A stretch of 64,000 bases of DNA. Origin: Amphritea japonica ATCC BAA-1530. GTDB lineage: Bacteria; Pseudomonadota; Gammaproteobacteria; Pseudomonadales; Balneatricaceae. The stretch lies in the NCBI RefSeq assembly GCF_016592435.1, contig NZ_AP014545.1, positions 1,426,001 through 1,490,000 on the forward strand, written 5' to 3'. A program made the translations under genes and the position numbers. This document shows positions 1 to 52,379 of the stretch, one piece after another. How positions within the stretch are numbered: position 1 is the first letter of the stretch; every line of letters begins with the position of its first letter. The notes beneath the pieces were generated by a model. That model ran no database searches. It was not told where the DNA came from and saw nothing but the letters and a program-made list of their open reading frames with translations.

Positions 1-60
1 GTGAAACAAAGATGGTGTCTCTGACGTTTTGAGTCGCTGATAATGATTGAAGGTGAAGCT

Positions 61-3000
61 ATGACAAATACAACTGACCAGTTCCGGATAAAAATTCGTG
101 ATCATTACCTTGCTGAAGAGCGTCAGGTTATCCGTGATTTGGTTGCCAATGCGCGTATGACCGCAGAAGATCGGGATCAGATCTCTGCTAATGCGGCACA
201 ACTGGTGACCACAGTTCGTAACGAAAGCTCGCCTTCGATGATGGAAAAGTTTCTCGCAGAGTACGGCCTGACGACCAAAGAAGGTGTTGCTTTGATGTGC
301 CTGGCTGAAGCGCTGTTACGGGTGCCTGATGCGGTTACTATCGATGCGCTGATTGAAGATAAAGTGGCTTCTGGCAACTGGGGCGAGCATCTGGGCAAGT
401 CTCGTTCTTCTCTGGTTAACTCATCAACCTGGGCCTTATTACTGACTGGCAAGCTGATTGCTCCAACCGAAGATAAAGGTGTGACTCAGGCGCTACGGGG
501 GATGATTAAGCGTTTGGGAGAGCCTGTTGTACGTACTGCAGTTGGTCAGTCTATGAAAGAACTGGGCCGACAGTTTGTTCTGGGCCGCACTATAGATGAG
601 GCCACTAAGCGCGCGAGGAAATTAGAAAAACAGGGCTATTCATATTCCTACGATATGCTGGGTGAGGCCGCCCGTACGGATGCGGATGCCTTGCGTTATC
701 ACCAGTCGTACAGCGATGCTATTAGTAAGCTGACTCCAGCGTGTATTCATACTGATATTCGGATGAATCCGGGTATCTCGGTCAAGTTGTCTGCACTGCA
801 TGCCCGGTATGAGTTCGCACAGAAAGATCGGGTAATGGTCGAGTTGGTTGAGCGTACGAAAGCGCTGGCTCTGCAGGCGAAAGAAGCAAATATGGGTTTC
901 AATATTGATGCAGAGGAACAGGATCGTCTGGATATCTCGCTCGATGTTATTGAAGCTGTATTGTCTGATGAGGCCTTAGCAGGCTGGGACGGTTTTGGCA
1001 TAGTGGTTCAGGCGTTTGGTCCGAGAGCTTCATTTGTGCTGGATTGGCTCTACGATCTGGCAATTCGCCTGGATCGTAAAATCATGGTGCGCCTGGTTAA
1101 GGGTGCCTATTGGGATGCTGAAATTAAGCGAGCGCAGGAGATGGGTTTGGATGGTTTTCCTGTTTATACCCGCAAGGTTAATTCCGACGTATCTTATCTC
1201 TGTTGTGCTGAAAAATTGCTGGCGATGACCGATCGGATCTACCCACAATTTGCGACTCATAATGCTCATTCCGTTTCAGGCATTCTGCATTTGGCGCGTC
1301 ATTTGAATCATGAAGATTTTGAATTCCAGCGTCTTCATGGCATGGGAGAGTCTCTGCATGACGCTGTACTGAAATCTGAAAATACTCGCTGTCGGATCTA
1401 TGCACCGGTCGGGGCCCATCGGGATCTGTTGGCGTATCTGGTACGCCGTTTGTTGGAAAATGGGGCTAATAGTTCTTTTGTAAACCAGATTGTTGATACG
1501 CGTATTAAACCGGAGGAAATCGCCCGTGATCCTTTCTCCGCTGTTAGTGCTCTGGGTGAAAACATCAGCAGCAGTGCGATTTCACGCCCGGTTAACCTGT
1601 TTGGTGATAAGCGTGTTAATGCCCGTGGCTGGGATATCACAGATTCGGTTCAGGTTGAGGTGTTAGAAGCGCAACGACAGGAATTTAAAACGTTTAAGTG
1701 GACGGCTGCCCCTATAATCGCGGGCGAAGTGATGAGTACAGAATCCGTTGCCATTTATAACCCGGCGCTGCCTGATGACTGTGTCGGTCAGGTGACAAAT
1801 ACCTGTGCAGAAGATATTGAACTGGCTATTGAGGCCGCTCAGCAAGGTTATAACAGATGGTCACAAAAGAGTGCCGCAGAGCGGGCATCATGTCTGCAAA
1901 AATTTGCAGATCTGCTTGAAGAGAATGCGCCAGAGCTCTTTACACTGACGACCCGTGAAGCGGGTAAAACGCTGCTGGATGCGATTGGCGAACTACGTGA
2001 GGCGGTCGACTTTGCCCGTTTCTATGCTCTGGAGGCTATTCGCAATGAAACGGTTGGCGAAGCGCGGGGTGTTATTACCTGTATCTCTCCATGGAATTTC
2101 CCTCTGGCCATTTTTTCCGGCCAGGTATTGGCGGCAATTGCCGCAGGTAATGCGGTGTTGGCGAAGCCTGCAGATCAGACACCGCTAGTGGCTGCCCGTG
2201 CTGTTGAATTGATGCATCAGGCAGGCATTCCTAATGATGTGGTTCAGTTACTGCCGGGTAGTGGTATCGCTGTTGGCGCTCCTTTGACTTCTGATAGCAG
2301 AATTGCAGGTGTCTGCTTCACCGGTTCTACGGTGACTGCGCAACGAATCAATCGGGTAATGGCTGAGAATATGGCTCCAGAAGCGCCATTAGTTGCTGAG
2401 ACGGGGGGCATGAACGCGATGATTGTCGATTCGACAGCACTACCCGAGCAGGTTGTACGTGATGTACTGGCTTCCTCCTTTCAGAGTGCTGGTCAGCGCT
2501 GTTCTGCATTGCGGGTGCTTTATCTACAGAAAGATATTGCCGATAATTTACTGGAGATGCTCTTTGGTGCAATGGATGAGTTGCGTGTCGGTAACCCCTG
2601 GGCGTTGAGTACAGATGTAGGGCCGGTAATCGATCAGTTAGCTAAAGATAAGATTGAAGCGCATTGCAGGAAGTTTAGTGCTCAAGGGCGGGTGATGAAG
2701 TCCTTAGCTAAGCCAGATGAGGGGCTGTTTGTTTCTCCTACGGTCATTAAGCTGGACAGTATTGCTGAATTGGATGAGGAAATTTTTGGTCCGGTTCTGC
2801 ATGTAGTGACTTTTGAGGCGGATGAGATCGATGATGTTGTCGATGCAATCAATAACACAGGTTATGGCTTAACATTTGGCCTGCATACCCGGGTTGATAA
2901 CCGGGTCGCTCAGATCTGCAATCGTATCAAAGTGGGTAACATCTATGTCAACCGTAATCAGATTGGCGCCATTGTAGGTTCTCAGCCTTTTGGTGGTGAA

Positions 3001-3684
3001 GGTCTTTCAGGTACGGGGCCTAAAGCAGGTGGGCCTCAATACGTAAAGCGGTTTATGAAGACAGAAGCGACAGCAGAGGTCGAATCGGATTTGAGCGCAA
3101 CAGTGGGTTCCGCTCAGTTGCAAGAAGCGCTGGATCGTCTTGATAATAGTGGCTGGGTGGCAAAAACTGATAAGTCCGAACAGTTGCAGGCTCTGTTTCC
3201 TCAATTGGATATTACGTTTGCAGATTTGCAACAAGAAGCCGAGCCAATGCCCGGTCCCACAGGAGAGTTGAATCTACTTTCCTCTCATGCACGTGGAGTA
3301 GTGTTGTGCCTGGGGCCTGATCTGAAAAGTGCAATACGCCAGGCCGTATTGGCGCTTTCTCAGGGGAATGCAGTTATGGTTATTGCACCAAACACTGAGG
3401 GTAAGTTTCAGGCTGCTACAGAGGCTGGTTTGCCGGTAAAAGCGATCAGTGGGCTGCTGGATCCGAAAGCCCTGGCGAGTGTCACGGGTTTTGCTGCTGT
3501 AGTAAGTTGTGCCGATCAGGCTACTTTACATCGCTATCGGGTTGCGTTGGCTTCTCGTGACGGAGTGTTAATCCCACTCATTACTGAACGCAATGCGATA
3601 GAGCGTTTTACTTTAGAGCGTCATCTCTGTGTTGATACTACCGCTGCGGGGGGAAATGCCAGCCTGATTGCAGCGTCAGAATAG
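61..3684 (+). CDS. putA: Bifunctional proline dehydrogenase / L-glutamate-gamma-semialdehyde dehydrogenase PutA
   Basis: PutA oxidises proline to P5C with an FAD-linked proline dehydrogenase, then oxidises glutamate semialdehyde to glutamate with an NAD-linked ALDH. Visible parts: a proline dehydrogenase barrel (about residues 180-480, with VRLVKGAYWDAE and FATHNAHS), an ALDH domain (about 560-1010, with ISPWNFPLAIF, CFTGST, ETGGMN and catalytic Cys814 in GQRCSAL), and a C-terminal ALDH-like tail of about 170 residues. The N-terminal ribbon-helix-helix DNA-binding domain of E. coli PutA is absent, so this is the enzyme-only form with the C-terminal domain (type B in the usual scheme), and put regulation must lie elsewhere. 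I chose ATG 61 over ATG 43 because a GAAGGTGAAG ribosome site sits just upstream of 61. The gene is intact and ends before a strong terminator. Confidence 0.96.
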   Translation: MTNTTDQFRIKIRDHYLAEERQVIRDLVANARMTAEDRDQISANAAQLVTTVRNESSPSMMEKFLAEYGLTTKEGVALMCLAEALLRVPDAVTIDALIEDKVASGNWGEHLGKSRSSLVNSSTWALLLTGKLIAPTEDKGVTQALRGMIKRLGEPVVRTAVGQSMKELGRQFVLGRTIDEATKRARKLEKQGYSYSYDMLGEAARTDADALRYHQSYSDAISKLTPACIHTDIRMNPGISVKLSALHARYEFAQKDRVMVELVERTKALALQAKEANMGFNIDAEEQDRLDISLDVIEAVLSDEALAGWDGFGIVVQAFGPRASFVLDWLYDLAIRLDRKIMVRLVKGAYWDAEIKRAQEMGLDGFPVYTRKVNSDVSYLCCAEKLLAMTDRIYPQFATHNAHSVSGILHLARHLNHEDFEFQRLHGMGESLHDAVLKSENTRCRIYAPVGAHRDLLAYLVRRLLENGANSSFVNQIVDTRIKPEEIARDPFSAVSALGENISSSAISRPVNLFGDKRVNARGWDITDSVQVEVLEAQRQEFKTFKWTAAPIIAGEVMSTESVAIYNPALPDDCVGQVTNTCAEDIELAIEAAQQGYNRWSQKSAAERASCLQKFADLLEENAPELFTLTTREAGKTLLDAIGELREAVDFARFYALEAIRNETVGEARGVITCISPWNFPLAIFSGQVLAAIAAGNAVLAKPADQTPLVAARAVELMHQAGIPNDVVQLLPGSGIAVGAPLTSDSRIAGVCFTGSTVTAQRINRVMAENMAPEAPLVAETGGMNAMIVDSTALPEQVVRDVLASSFQSAGQRCSALRVLYLQKDIADNLLEMLFGAMDELRVGNPWALSTDVGPVIDQLAKDKIEAHCRKFSAQGRVMKSLAKPDEGLFVSPTVIKLDSIAELDEEIFGPVLHVVTFEADEIDDVVDAINNTGYGLTFGLHTRVDNRVAQICNRIKVGNIYVNRNQIGAIVGSQPFGGEGLSGTGPKAGGPQYVKRFMKTEATAEVESDLSATVGSAQLQEALDRLDNSGWVAKTDKSEQLQALFPQLDITFADLQQEAEPMPGPTGELNLLSSHARGVVLCLGPDLKSAIRQAVLALSQGNAVMVIAPNTEGKFQAATEAGLPVKAISGLLDPKALASVTGFAAVVSCADQATLHRYRVALASRDGVLIPLITERNAIERFTLERHLCVDTTAAGGNASLIAASE

Positions 3685-3735
3685 CTGCTTAAGAGCAGTG
3701 ATTTTGGTTGTATAAGGCCTCACCACTCTTTGTCT

Positions 3736-3775
3736 CTGGGATCTTATCCCAGCGTCGAGTAGTCGTACTACCGAC
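3736..3775 (+). other. Two tandem hairpins in the putA 3' region
   Basis: Between the putA stop and its terminator there are two compact stem-loops. One spans 3736-3752 (CTGGGAT / ATCCCAG, 3-nt loop). The other spans 3754-3775 (GTCG-a-GTAGT / ACTAC-CGAC, 3-nt loop, one bulged A). With the terminator at 3789 they form three hairpins in about 80 nt. This could be a structured 3' UTR or a small RNA. The structures are read by eye only. Confidence 0.5.
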
Positions 3776-3788
3776 CTCGATGTTTCAT

Positions 3789-3813
3789 GCCCCTCTTAGA
3801 GGGGCTTTTTTTT
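3789..3813 (+). terminator. Rho-independent terminator of putA
   Basis: GCCCCTC and GAGGGGC form a 7-bp stem with a 3-nt loop, followed by eight T. It lies about 105 bases after the putA stop and is oriented for + strand transcripts. Confidence 0.92.
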
Positions 3814-3968
3814 AGATAATTTAGGGATGCTTTTTTTTTCGCAACCAGCCCTGATCACAAAAGTACAATGACTCTCTCAGTTTGGTGATTCTAGTCAATA
3901 ATTGATATTGCTAATCCGTGGGTAAGGCTTACTGTTATAGAGTAAGGTTTACGACAAGGAATTAAGTT

Positions 3969-5597
3969 GTGAGAGTGGTAAATAGTTCAACCAGTGATTT
4001 TTTGCATAACAATGTCAAAGTGTTTCGTTCACGGGTTTCAAAAACTGCCTGGCAGGGTATATCTGTAGCTATTATTGCACTGACAGTAGCGACGGCGGCT
4101 GTCGCGTATTTAGAGTCCGGTCAGATAAGTATCGCTAGTTTACTTGAGGCCCAGCGAACTAACTTTGCCCTTTGGATACTGGATATAGTGCCCTTTATCT
4201 TTGCGTTCTGGGGACAGTATTCCAGTACGGTGTTAGCGTATGAAGCCAGCGCCATGGTGATGGATCAGACTCAGGAACTGCGCGATAAAGCGGATAGCTT
4301 TGAGAAGCAAGCTCGCCACAGTATTACCCACGATCTGTTAACCGATATGCCGAATAAAGAGTTGTTTTACGATCGGGTAGAACAGCACATAGTATCACCC
4401 CGCGGTCAGACAATCTTTTCCGTGCTTTTAATTGAAGTCTCCAATTATAAAGAGATTAGCGATACGCTGGGGCGTAACAGTAGCGATAGTTTAATTAAAC
4501 AGATCGCTGTTCGTTTAGAAAGCGCGTTTCCCAGTCCTTATTCTATTGCCCGTTTAGAAAGTAATACTTTTAGTTTGCTCGTTAGTGAAGAGCTGTCGGA
4601 AAGGTCAGTACTTGAACTGGCAGAGAGCGTTCATCGAGTGCTACATGATGCTTTCTTTGTTGAGAAGGTGAAGGTGTCAGCCCAGGCTAACATTGGTATT
4701 GTTCATTTCCCGCTGCATGGTACTGATGTTGATACGCTGGTCCAGCGTGCAGGTATTGCACTGTATATGGCGCAGAATTCGAATAAAGGCAGTGCGGTGT
4801 ATGACTCATCTTTTGATGCCCACAGCCCGAAGCAACTAACACTCATGAGTGATTTGAGTCATGCGCTCGAGAACCAGGAACTGGAACTGTATTATCAGCC
4901 CAAAGTTAAAGTGTCTGATGGGTCAATCAGTGGTGCAGAAGCTTTGGTGAGATGGAACCATCCTAAGCATGGTTTGCTCGGCCCTGATCAGTTTATCCCG
5001 CTGATGGAGCGTACGCGATTGATTCAGGGGTTAACGCTGTGGGTCATTCAGGAAGGTTTCTCCCAGTGTGCCGAGTGGCATAGGACAGGTCTGGACATTA
5101 TTCTGTCTATCAACCTTTCAGCCAAGGATCTGAACAACCCGGAACTGCCCGATCTGATCTCTGGTATTAAAGGTGCAACCGGTATTAATCCGGCCTGGAT
5201 TACACTGGAAATTACGGAAAGCTCAATCATGACGGACCCTGATGCAGCGATGGGAATAATCAGACGTATACATGATATGGGCTTTCAGTTTTCTATCGAT
5301 GACTACGGTACGGGCTACTCATCACTTTCATATCTCAAAAGCTTACCGCTAAAAGAGCTGAAGATTGATCGTTCTTTTGTCTCTGATATTTTACGTGATG
5401 AAAGTGATGCCGTCATTGTCAACGCTACCATCAATCTGGCACATAACCTCGGGTTAGAAGTGACAGCTGAAGGGGTTGAAGATCAGGCGACGCTGGAACT
5501 ATTGAAAGAAGAGGGGTGCGATCTGGCACAGGGGTTCCACCTGGGTAGACCTATGCCGCAATCGGAGTTTAATCAGTGGTGTAGTGAAAATAGATAA
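3969..5597 (+). CDS. Membrane GGDEF-EAL protein, probable c-di-GMP phosphodiesterase
   Basis: Two hydrophobic segments (about residues 30-50 and 68-86) precede a GGDEF domain (about 120-275) and an EAL domain (about 290-540). The GGDEF signature is degenerate (ARLESNTF where RLGGDEF is expected), so cyclase activity is unlikely. The EAL domain keeps AEALVRW, NLSA, EITES, the Asp pair in DDYGTGYS (residues 444-445), the Lys of LKIDRSF and AEGVED, so it should hydrolyse c-di-GMP to pGpG. The degenerate GGDEF may bind GTP and regulate the EAL domain, as in some characterised relatives. The start is GTG, with AAGGA upstream. It is a single gene facing a convergent radical SAM gene. Confidence 0.92.
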   Translation: MRVVNSSTSDFLHNNVKVFRSRVSKTAWQGISVAIIALTVATAAVAYLESGQISIASLLEAQRTNFALWILDIVPFIFAFWGQYSSTVLAYEASAMVMDQTQELRDKADSFEKQARHSITHDLLTDMPNKELFYDRVEQHIVSPRGQTIFSVLLIEVSNYKEISDTLGRNSSDSLIKQIAVRLESAFPSPYSIARLESNTFSLLVSEELSERSVLELAESVHRVLHDAFFVEKVKVSAQANIGIVHFPLHGTDVDTLVQRAGIALYMAQNSNKGSAVYDSSFDAHSPKQLTLMSDLSHALENQELELYYQPKVKVSDGSISGAEALVRWNHPKHGLLGPDQFIPLMERTRLIQGLTLWVIQEGFSQCAEWHRTGLDIILSINLSAKDLNNPELPDLISGIKGATGINPAWITLEITESSIMTDPDAAMGIIRRIHDMGFQFSIDDYGTGYSSLSYLKSLPLKELKIDRSFVSDILRDESDAVIVNATINLAHNLGLEVTAEGVEDQATLELLKEEGCDLAQGFHLGRPMPQSEFNQWCSENR

Positions 5598-51771: not shown

Positions 51772-52254
51772 ATGCAAATTGCTGACAATAAAATTGTCCT
51801 GATTCACTACACCCTGACTAATCTCGATGACGAAGTAATGGACTCATCTGACGGTGGCGAGCCACTGGCATACCTTCACGGTAAAGGAAATATCGTTCCA
51901 GGTCTGGAAAAAGAGTTGCTGGGTAAGCAAGCTGGGGACAAGGTTAATGTTGAGGTTTCTCCTGAAGAGGGCTACGGCGAGTTAAACGAAGAGCTAATAC
52001 AAGAAGTGGATCGTGCGGCGTTTGAAGGTGTTGAAGCCATTGAAGTAGGCATGCGCTTTATGGCACAGACCGCCTGGGGACAGCAGCCAGTCGTTGTCAC
52101 CGCAGTAACGGAAGAGAGTGTTATTGTTGATGGTAATCATCCACTGGCCGATCAGACTTTAAAGTTTGATGTTGAGGTGGTTGAAGTACGTGATGCTTCT
52201 GAAGAGGAACTGGAGCATGGTCATGCGCATGGTGCCGGTGGCCACCATCATTGA
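51772..52254 (+). CDS. slyD: FKBP-type peptidyl-prolyl isomerase SlyD
   Basis: A 160-residue SlyD-type isomerase. The FKBP core (YTLTNLDDEVMDSSDGGEPL, about residue 15 onward) has an IF-domain insertion (about 65-130), and the C-terminus is His-rich (HGHAHGAGGHHH) as in metal-binding SlyD. It is a cytoplasmic folding chaperone/isomerase with Ni handling in E. coli. A strong terminator follows 20 bases after the stop. Confidence 0.94.
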   Translation: MQIADNKIVLIHYTLTNLDDEVMDSSDGGEPLAYLHGKGNIVPGLEKELLGKQAGDKVNVEVSPEEGYGELNEELIQEVDRAAFEGVEAIEVGMRFMAQTAWGQQPVVVTAVTEESVIVDGNHPLADQTLKFDVEVVEVRDASEEELEHGHAHGAGGHHH

Positions 52255-52273
52255 TTAGTTGATTTTGTATAAT

Positions 52274-52299
52274 AAAAAAGGCGCTTAGCGCCTTTTTTT
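52274..52299 (+). terminator. Terminator of slyD
   Basis: GGCGC and GCGCC with a TTA loop form the core, flanked by A6 before and T7 after, so it may work in both directions. It lies 20 bases after slyD. Confidence 0.92.
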
Positions 52300-52379
52300 G
52301 TTTGTCCTGTGTACTAACATTTTTGATCTCGCTGCATATATACTTGAGCGATAGACCCAGTATCCTCCAGTGAGTGCCG

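Follow-up and report, generated by a model that had tools for sequence, protein, structure and literature searches.

A structured element after putA in part of a bacterial genus, possibly a 3' UTR-derived small RNA

We investigated the region behind putA in a 64-kb stretch of DNA (the window). The window opens with a putA-type ORF that ends in a TAG stop codon at 3682-3684, and a transporter-like ORF upstream of it is presumably putP, judging by its sequence and position. The spacing from the putA stop codon to an intrinsic terminator is 104 nt, the second half of which is occupied by two hairpins, named here H1 and H2. The features of the locus are as follows.

43-3684, plus strand: putA, encoding a bifunctional proline dehydrogenase/aldehyde dehydrogenase of 1213 aa (ORF; Pfam Pro_dh, Pro_dh-DNA_bdg, PRODH and Aldedh)
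3685-3735, plus strand: early putA 3' UTR, weakly structured (sequence; fold z = -1.10)
3736-3752, plus strand: H1, 7 bp with a CTT loop (fold; alignment with the relatives G012 and G004; pattern search)
3753-3782, plus strand: H2, corresponding to the GTCGG...CCGGC hairpin seen in relatives (fold; alignment with relatives)
3783-3788, plus strand: linker between H2 and the terminator, TTTCAT (sequence; T-rich in relatives)
3789-3813, plus strand: intrinsic terminator, GCCCCTC-TTA-GAGGGGC followed by eight T (sequence)
3969-5597, plus strand: GGDEF-EAL gene, downstream and outside the element (ORF and domain search)

Refolding confirmed that the three hairpins after putA are real, and the coordinates that a previous sequence-only reading had assigned to them proved right. 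H1 (CTGGGAT-CTT-ATCCCAG) has 7 bp, a 3-nt loop and an energy of -8.4 kcal/mol, which is reached by 4 of 200 shuffled sequences. H2 has an energy of -11.9 kcal/mol (2/200 shuffles as low). Both had been described as stem-loops with 3-nt loops. This is correct for H1, but the best fold of H2 has 7+4 bp with a bulge of 2 nt and a loop of 6 nt; the 3-nt loop belongs to an inner helix, GTAGT-CGT-ACTAC (3759-3771), that competes with it. The terminator hairpin (3789-3805) has seven pairs, six of them G-C, and a 3-nt loop ahead of the eight T. The whole unit (3733-3813) folds with -35.5 kcal/mol and z = -5.65, and with the terminator left off (3733-3784) z is still -4.70; none of 200 shuffles is as low in either case. 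The fold of the sequence upstream of H1 (3685-3732) is not significant (32 of 200 shuffles as low), and its surroundings include a C/T-rich stretch, TCACCACTCTTTGTCT, which makes up the last 16 bases before H1 (3720-3735). A single promoter-like match was found within 3000-4800, at 3118 (shuffle mean 2.3). The element has the placement expected of 3' UTR-derived sRNAs, in the 3' UTR of the putA mRNA and ending at a Rho-independent terminator, as read from the sequence.

A layout with several hairpins before the terminator is rare in the approximately 12% of the genome that we sampled (464 kb, comprising the window and 20 stretches of 20 kb). By criteria specific to this analysis, we counted terminators at most 300 nt from the end of an ORF of at least 120 codons, and hairpins of -6 kcal/mol or better between the stop codon and the terminator. 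No hairpin precedes 34 of the 48 sampled terminators, one hairpin precedes 12, two precede 1 and three precede 1, that of putA; the third hairpin counted for putA is a weak, non-significant fold before H1. Two strong hairpins thus precede just one of the 47 other terminators.

We then investigated 17 genomes of the genus, including the window genome (G000). PutA with at least 69% C-terminal identity is encoded in 12 of them, the window genome included (group A). More distant PutA proteins (58-59%) are found in G001, G002, G003 and G013, and G014 gave no match to the PutA C-terminus at E 1e-50. A single terminator close behind the putA stop codon is found in the four genomes with a distant PutA; the putA 3' UTRs of group A are longer than these and contain many hairpins. 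By eye, an H2 with the 5' arm GTCGG, or nearly so, stands directly before the terminator in 9 of the 12 group-A genomes (G000, G012, G004, G010, G016, G006, G009, G008 and G005), and an H2 like these was not seen in the other three (G011, G007 and G015). At four loci (L036, L033, L034 and L038), a further long hairpin lies ahead of H1 (GTGAAGTAACTC...GGGTTACTTCAC in G006), with what appear by eye to be compensatory changes across species.

The element is best preserved in letters among four sister species (G006, G010, G016 and G009), which we compared in six pairs over the 66 nt ahead of the putA terminator; G015 was omitted from all identity comparisons because no terminator was recognised in it. 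Identity over these 66 nt is 82-91%, loops included; neither CUCCGC in the H1 loop nor any position of the 7-nt H2 loop varies. In the same four species, identity is 74-87% in PutA coding DNA, 44-69% at its fourfold sites, 42-81% in the earlier 3' UTR and 47-54% in the 100 nt downstream. The putP-putA spacer of these species served as a yardstick; its 66-nt windows reach 70-77% at the median and 86-97% at most. By this measure the conservation of the element matches that of the better-kept spacer segments and does not exceed it, some spacer windows being equally or more conserved, which weighs against the sRNA reading. Conservation beyond the terminator is present among the four sister species and absent when the window species is compared with G012 and G004, where identity is 65-66% in H1 and H2 and 66-70% downstream. 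Since the former does not exceed the latter, no selection on the letters of H1 and H2 is shown in the window species.

From the four sister species only, we built a covariance model (R1). The window species was excluded, and G008 and G005 were kept out to serve as tests. R1 was searched in all 17 genomes of the genus, with 150 of 858-2264 candidates scored per genome, and the terminator contributes part of each R1 score. Among the scored candidates, the putA 3' end is the top genome-wide match in five of the eight other group-A genomes (G008, E 1.4e-6; G004, 5.7e-4; G012, 1.3e-3; G005, 7e-3; G011, 9.8e-3). In G007 it is the second of two among the scored candidates, and in G015 it was not found among them. 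In the window genome, the putA end has an E-value of 0.92, joint second by E-value and third by bits, and the best match (0.41) lies elsewhere. None of the four sister genomes has a second match better than E 0.24 among the scored candidates.

Pairing was examined in a seven-species alignment made independently of R1; two MAFFT alignments (A3 and A4), in which the terminators are misaligned, were excluded from the counts. In the seven species, 98.2% of the H1 pair cells are kept, and 95.6% of those of H1 and H2 together, as compared to 32.5-48.3% when the pairing is slid. RNAalifold proposes the same helices from this alignment. Paired cells are not above shuffles in which the 3' letters are exchanged among species (mean 94.6%; 129 of 500 as high). 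Covariation is likewise not above chance in the seven species: both sides change at 2 of 13 pairs, a score equalled or exceeded by 112 of 500 shuffles. The H1-H2 structure is kept, and covariation as an independent proof of it is missing. The sequence-only reading had proposed a check of relatives for conservation or covariation of the first two stems. Some species of the genus do retain an H1-H2-terminator element behind putA, but the covariation stays at the level of the shuffles.

The H1 of the window species differs from that of its relatives. In the alignment with G004, the H1 5' arm found there (ACAGTCC) is three bases short in the window species. The 5' arm of the window H1, CTGGGAT, aligns to TAAGGGT of G004, the end of the old loop and the 3' arm, while the 3' arm, ATCCCAG, stands opposite ATCCTAC, the old linker. 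The alignment holds over the whole of H2 and the terminator. As judged from this alignment, the window H1 is a lineage-specific re-pairing, in which a hairpin at the H1 position is kept but not the same hairpin. It is mainly this re-pairing that holds the sRNA reading, discussed below, at no more than 0.45 for the window species.

A near-palindromic word, GGATCTTATCC, is found inside H1 at 3739-3749. The 3.83-Mb genome has four exact copies of it, two of which flank putA, the other two lying inside long ORFs. The upstream copy (G000:C1:1425937-1425947) is located in the spacer before putA, 54-64 nt ahead of the window start. The two flanking copies would fit a DNA-level operator, with the word as a candidate regulator site both before putA and in H1. 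However, the word was noticed post hoc, and none of 10 other genomes compared has this word both ahead of putA and in the putA 3' UTR. We consider an operator very unlikely.

We also asked which gene owns the element. The GGDEF-EAL gene is on the same strand, 155 nt past the terminator, and, with its N-terminus recognised by look, it is the next gene after putA at 8 of the 11 group-A loci examined; G008 is probably a ninth case. This arrangement might suggest a leader, riboswitch or attenuator for the GGDEF-EAL gene. On the other hand, a full terminator separates the element from that gene, and the downstream flank is unconserved among the four sister species, as seen above. The elements of G010 and G006 are 93% identical, and no GGDEF-EAL gene is seen in either genome within 1.5 kb past putA, where the longest ORF is on the opposite strand. 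A leader function is largely contradicted by these two genomes and was set aside as extremely unlikely. Because the element is retained in them without the neighbouring gene, it goes with putA.

No Rfam family matched the element at its gathering score. Matches to anti-hemB, suhB, NsiR1, RF02278 and ncS54 are all sub-threshold and were not used for naming. Full-length matches to anti-hemB (RF02837; gathering score 49.5) are found at the putA 3' end in G000 (24.4 bits, with an E-value of 0.19 for the 64-kb window), G009 (27.5 bits) and G010 (24.8 bits). The Betaproteobacteria toxic sRNA family (RF02278) scores 16.1 bits against a gathering score of 50. A repeat family was also rejected: within G000, a 124-nt query matched once over its full length and twice more over the terminator alone, and the element DNA has a single match, at putA, in each of the four sister genomes. 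Several other genomes, G008 and G007 among them, match the element DNA only by terminator-like pieces at other places. Elsewhere in the window, positions 52228-52366 carry a cluster of sub-threshold Rfam matches on both strands (sraA, 31.9 bits of 56; STnc40, 28.1 of 45), near a terminator counted in the genome sample (ORF end at 52254).

Outside the genus, 45 genomes of the family have a PutA match at E 1e-50, and 40 putA 3' ends were read. R1 matched 4 of these 40 at E < 0.02, all of them in one genus, g8, with E-values from 1e-4 to 0.013 for 20 kb; these matches may be homologous, or may reflect just a hairpin and a terminator. At each of the four g8 loci found (L138, L139, L140 and L154), the terminator coincides with or directly follows a strong hairpin, for example GCCGGATC...GATCCGGC. 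To the eye, the putA 3' ends read from other genera, in 40 of the 45 genomes with a match, look unrelated. This would agree with hairpins that arose by chance or persist neutrally, with no function beyond the terminator, as would the difference between the window H1 and that of the nearest relatives. Such an origin is very unlikely in view of the fold that persists without the terminator (z = -4.70), the conservation within the genus and the performance there of R1 as a leave-out model.

Tandem intrinsic terminators are a known arrangement, and a more serious alternative follows from them. H2 and the T's behind it would be a first terminator and the hairpin at 3789 a second, H1 and H2 would block 3'-5' exonucleases, and the putA 3' end would yield no trans-acting RNA. 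The relatives resemble such tandem terminators in having H2, then T's, then a second terminator: by eye, T-rich letters follow H2 in all eight relatives with an H2, and a run of at least four T in six of the eight (CGACTTTTTT in G012 and G004, CCGGCTTTTTT in G008, CCGGCTTTT in G006). The g8 hairpins described above, present in 4/4 putA 3' ends, point the same way. The window species keeps a hairpin at H1 despite its changed letters and pairing, as expected if structure alone matters. However, few T's follow H2 in the window (GATGTTTCATG), and only one of the 47 other sampled terminators of the genome has two strong hairpins ahead. Moreover, despite high synonymous divergence, the four sister species have kept the loops of H1 and H2, a conservation that neither a terminator nor a barrier needs. 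Conserved loops and the additional H1 distinguish the putA element from tandem terminators as such. We regard a terminator and stability module as nearly as probable as the sRNA reading, and sequence alone cannot decide between them.

Our preferred reading, to which we assign a probability of about 0.45, is a genus-level structured 3' UTR element of putA, composed of H1, H2 and the intrinsic terminator, that is possibly a 3' UTR-derived sRNA. A structured 3' UTR or an sRNA processed from the putA mRNA had already been proposed in the sequence-only reading. The structure and its conservation in part of the genus favour that proposal, whereas the re-paired H1 of the window species and the possibility of reading H2 and its T's as another terminator weaken it. 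We infer the following steps. Transcription would pass through putA and halt at the terminator, and an endonuclease such as RNase E would cut the weakly structured C/U-rich stretch ahead of H1. The terminator and its U tail, probably bound by Hfq, would leave a stable fragment of ~80 nt; an hfq gene is present in the genome. Unpaired C/U-rich letters, located in the H1 loop (CUCUCCGC) in G006 and G010 and in the pre-H1 stretch in the window species, might then pair with the ribosome-binding sites of putative targets.

A broader proposal is that the put mRNA of this genus also gives rise to an Hfq-type sRNA, not described before, during proline use, and that its C/U-rich H1 loop would shut the ribosome-binding sites of other catabolic or transport genes; the window species would then illustrate how such an RNA can change the pairing of its first hairpin without losing the three-hairpin shape. 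We consider this possible but rather doubtful. Autoregulation through pairing at the putA start region was rejected as inconsistent over 10 genomes. Such pairing is not beyond chance in the window species (80 of 300 shuffles as strong); the corresponding numbers are 3 in G007, 11 in G011, 17 in G006, 30 in G008 and 88-253 in the other five. No title among the literature matches listed concerns an sRNA from the putA 3' UTR.

Release of an sRNA would add proline utilisation to the metabolic mRNAs that carry their own regulatory RNA, such as glnA and sdh-suc, and would do so outside the enteric bacteria and vibrios, from which most known examples of 3' UTR-derived sRNAs come. Within the genus, four species have the element almost unchanged, another five have a recognisable version, the window species has a re-paired one, and in the remaining species it is not seen; this series would then be a small natural experiment on the origin and turnover of such RNAs. 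If the element is just a terminator module, it is ordinary.

A review recommends searching the 3' ends of genes for conservation that is not confined to the terminator, as a sign of 3' UTR sRNAs such as CpxQ, SdhX and OppZ, and describes these RNAs as often being cut from the mRNA by RNase E and using Hfq (PMC9438474). GlnZ is a 3' UTR-derived sRNA from glnA (PMC9731577). Like GlnZ (glnA), SdhX (sdh-suc) and CpxQ (cpxP), the putA element lies between a stop codon and a terminator and has a U tail, in a genome with Hfq (PMC9731577; PMC9438474; PMC6393394). It also shares with them conservation beyond the terminator, for the putA element in the four sister species (PMC9438474). The putA element differs in its parent gene, in being known from sequence, and in being recognised within part of one genus, with letters that are not conserved in the window species. 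A second comparison is with the double-hairpin sRNAs of Burkholderia (RF02278), which have CU-rich unpaired letters and a predicted action on ribosome-binding sites; one of them slows growth when overexpressed (PMC5688073). The likeness lies in short two-hairpin RNAs whose CU-rich unpaired letters are complementary to ribosome-binding sites, while the Burkholderia candidates are described as independently transcribed (PMC5688073). By analogy, the putA 3' element fits the plan of known processed or double-hairpin sRNAs.
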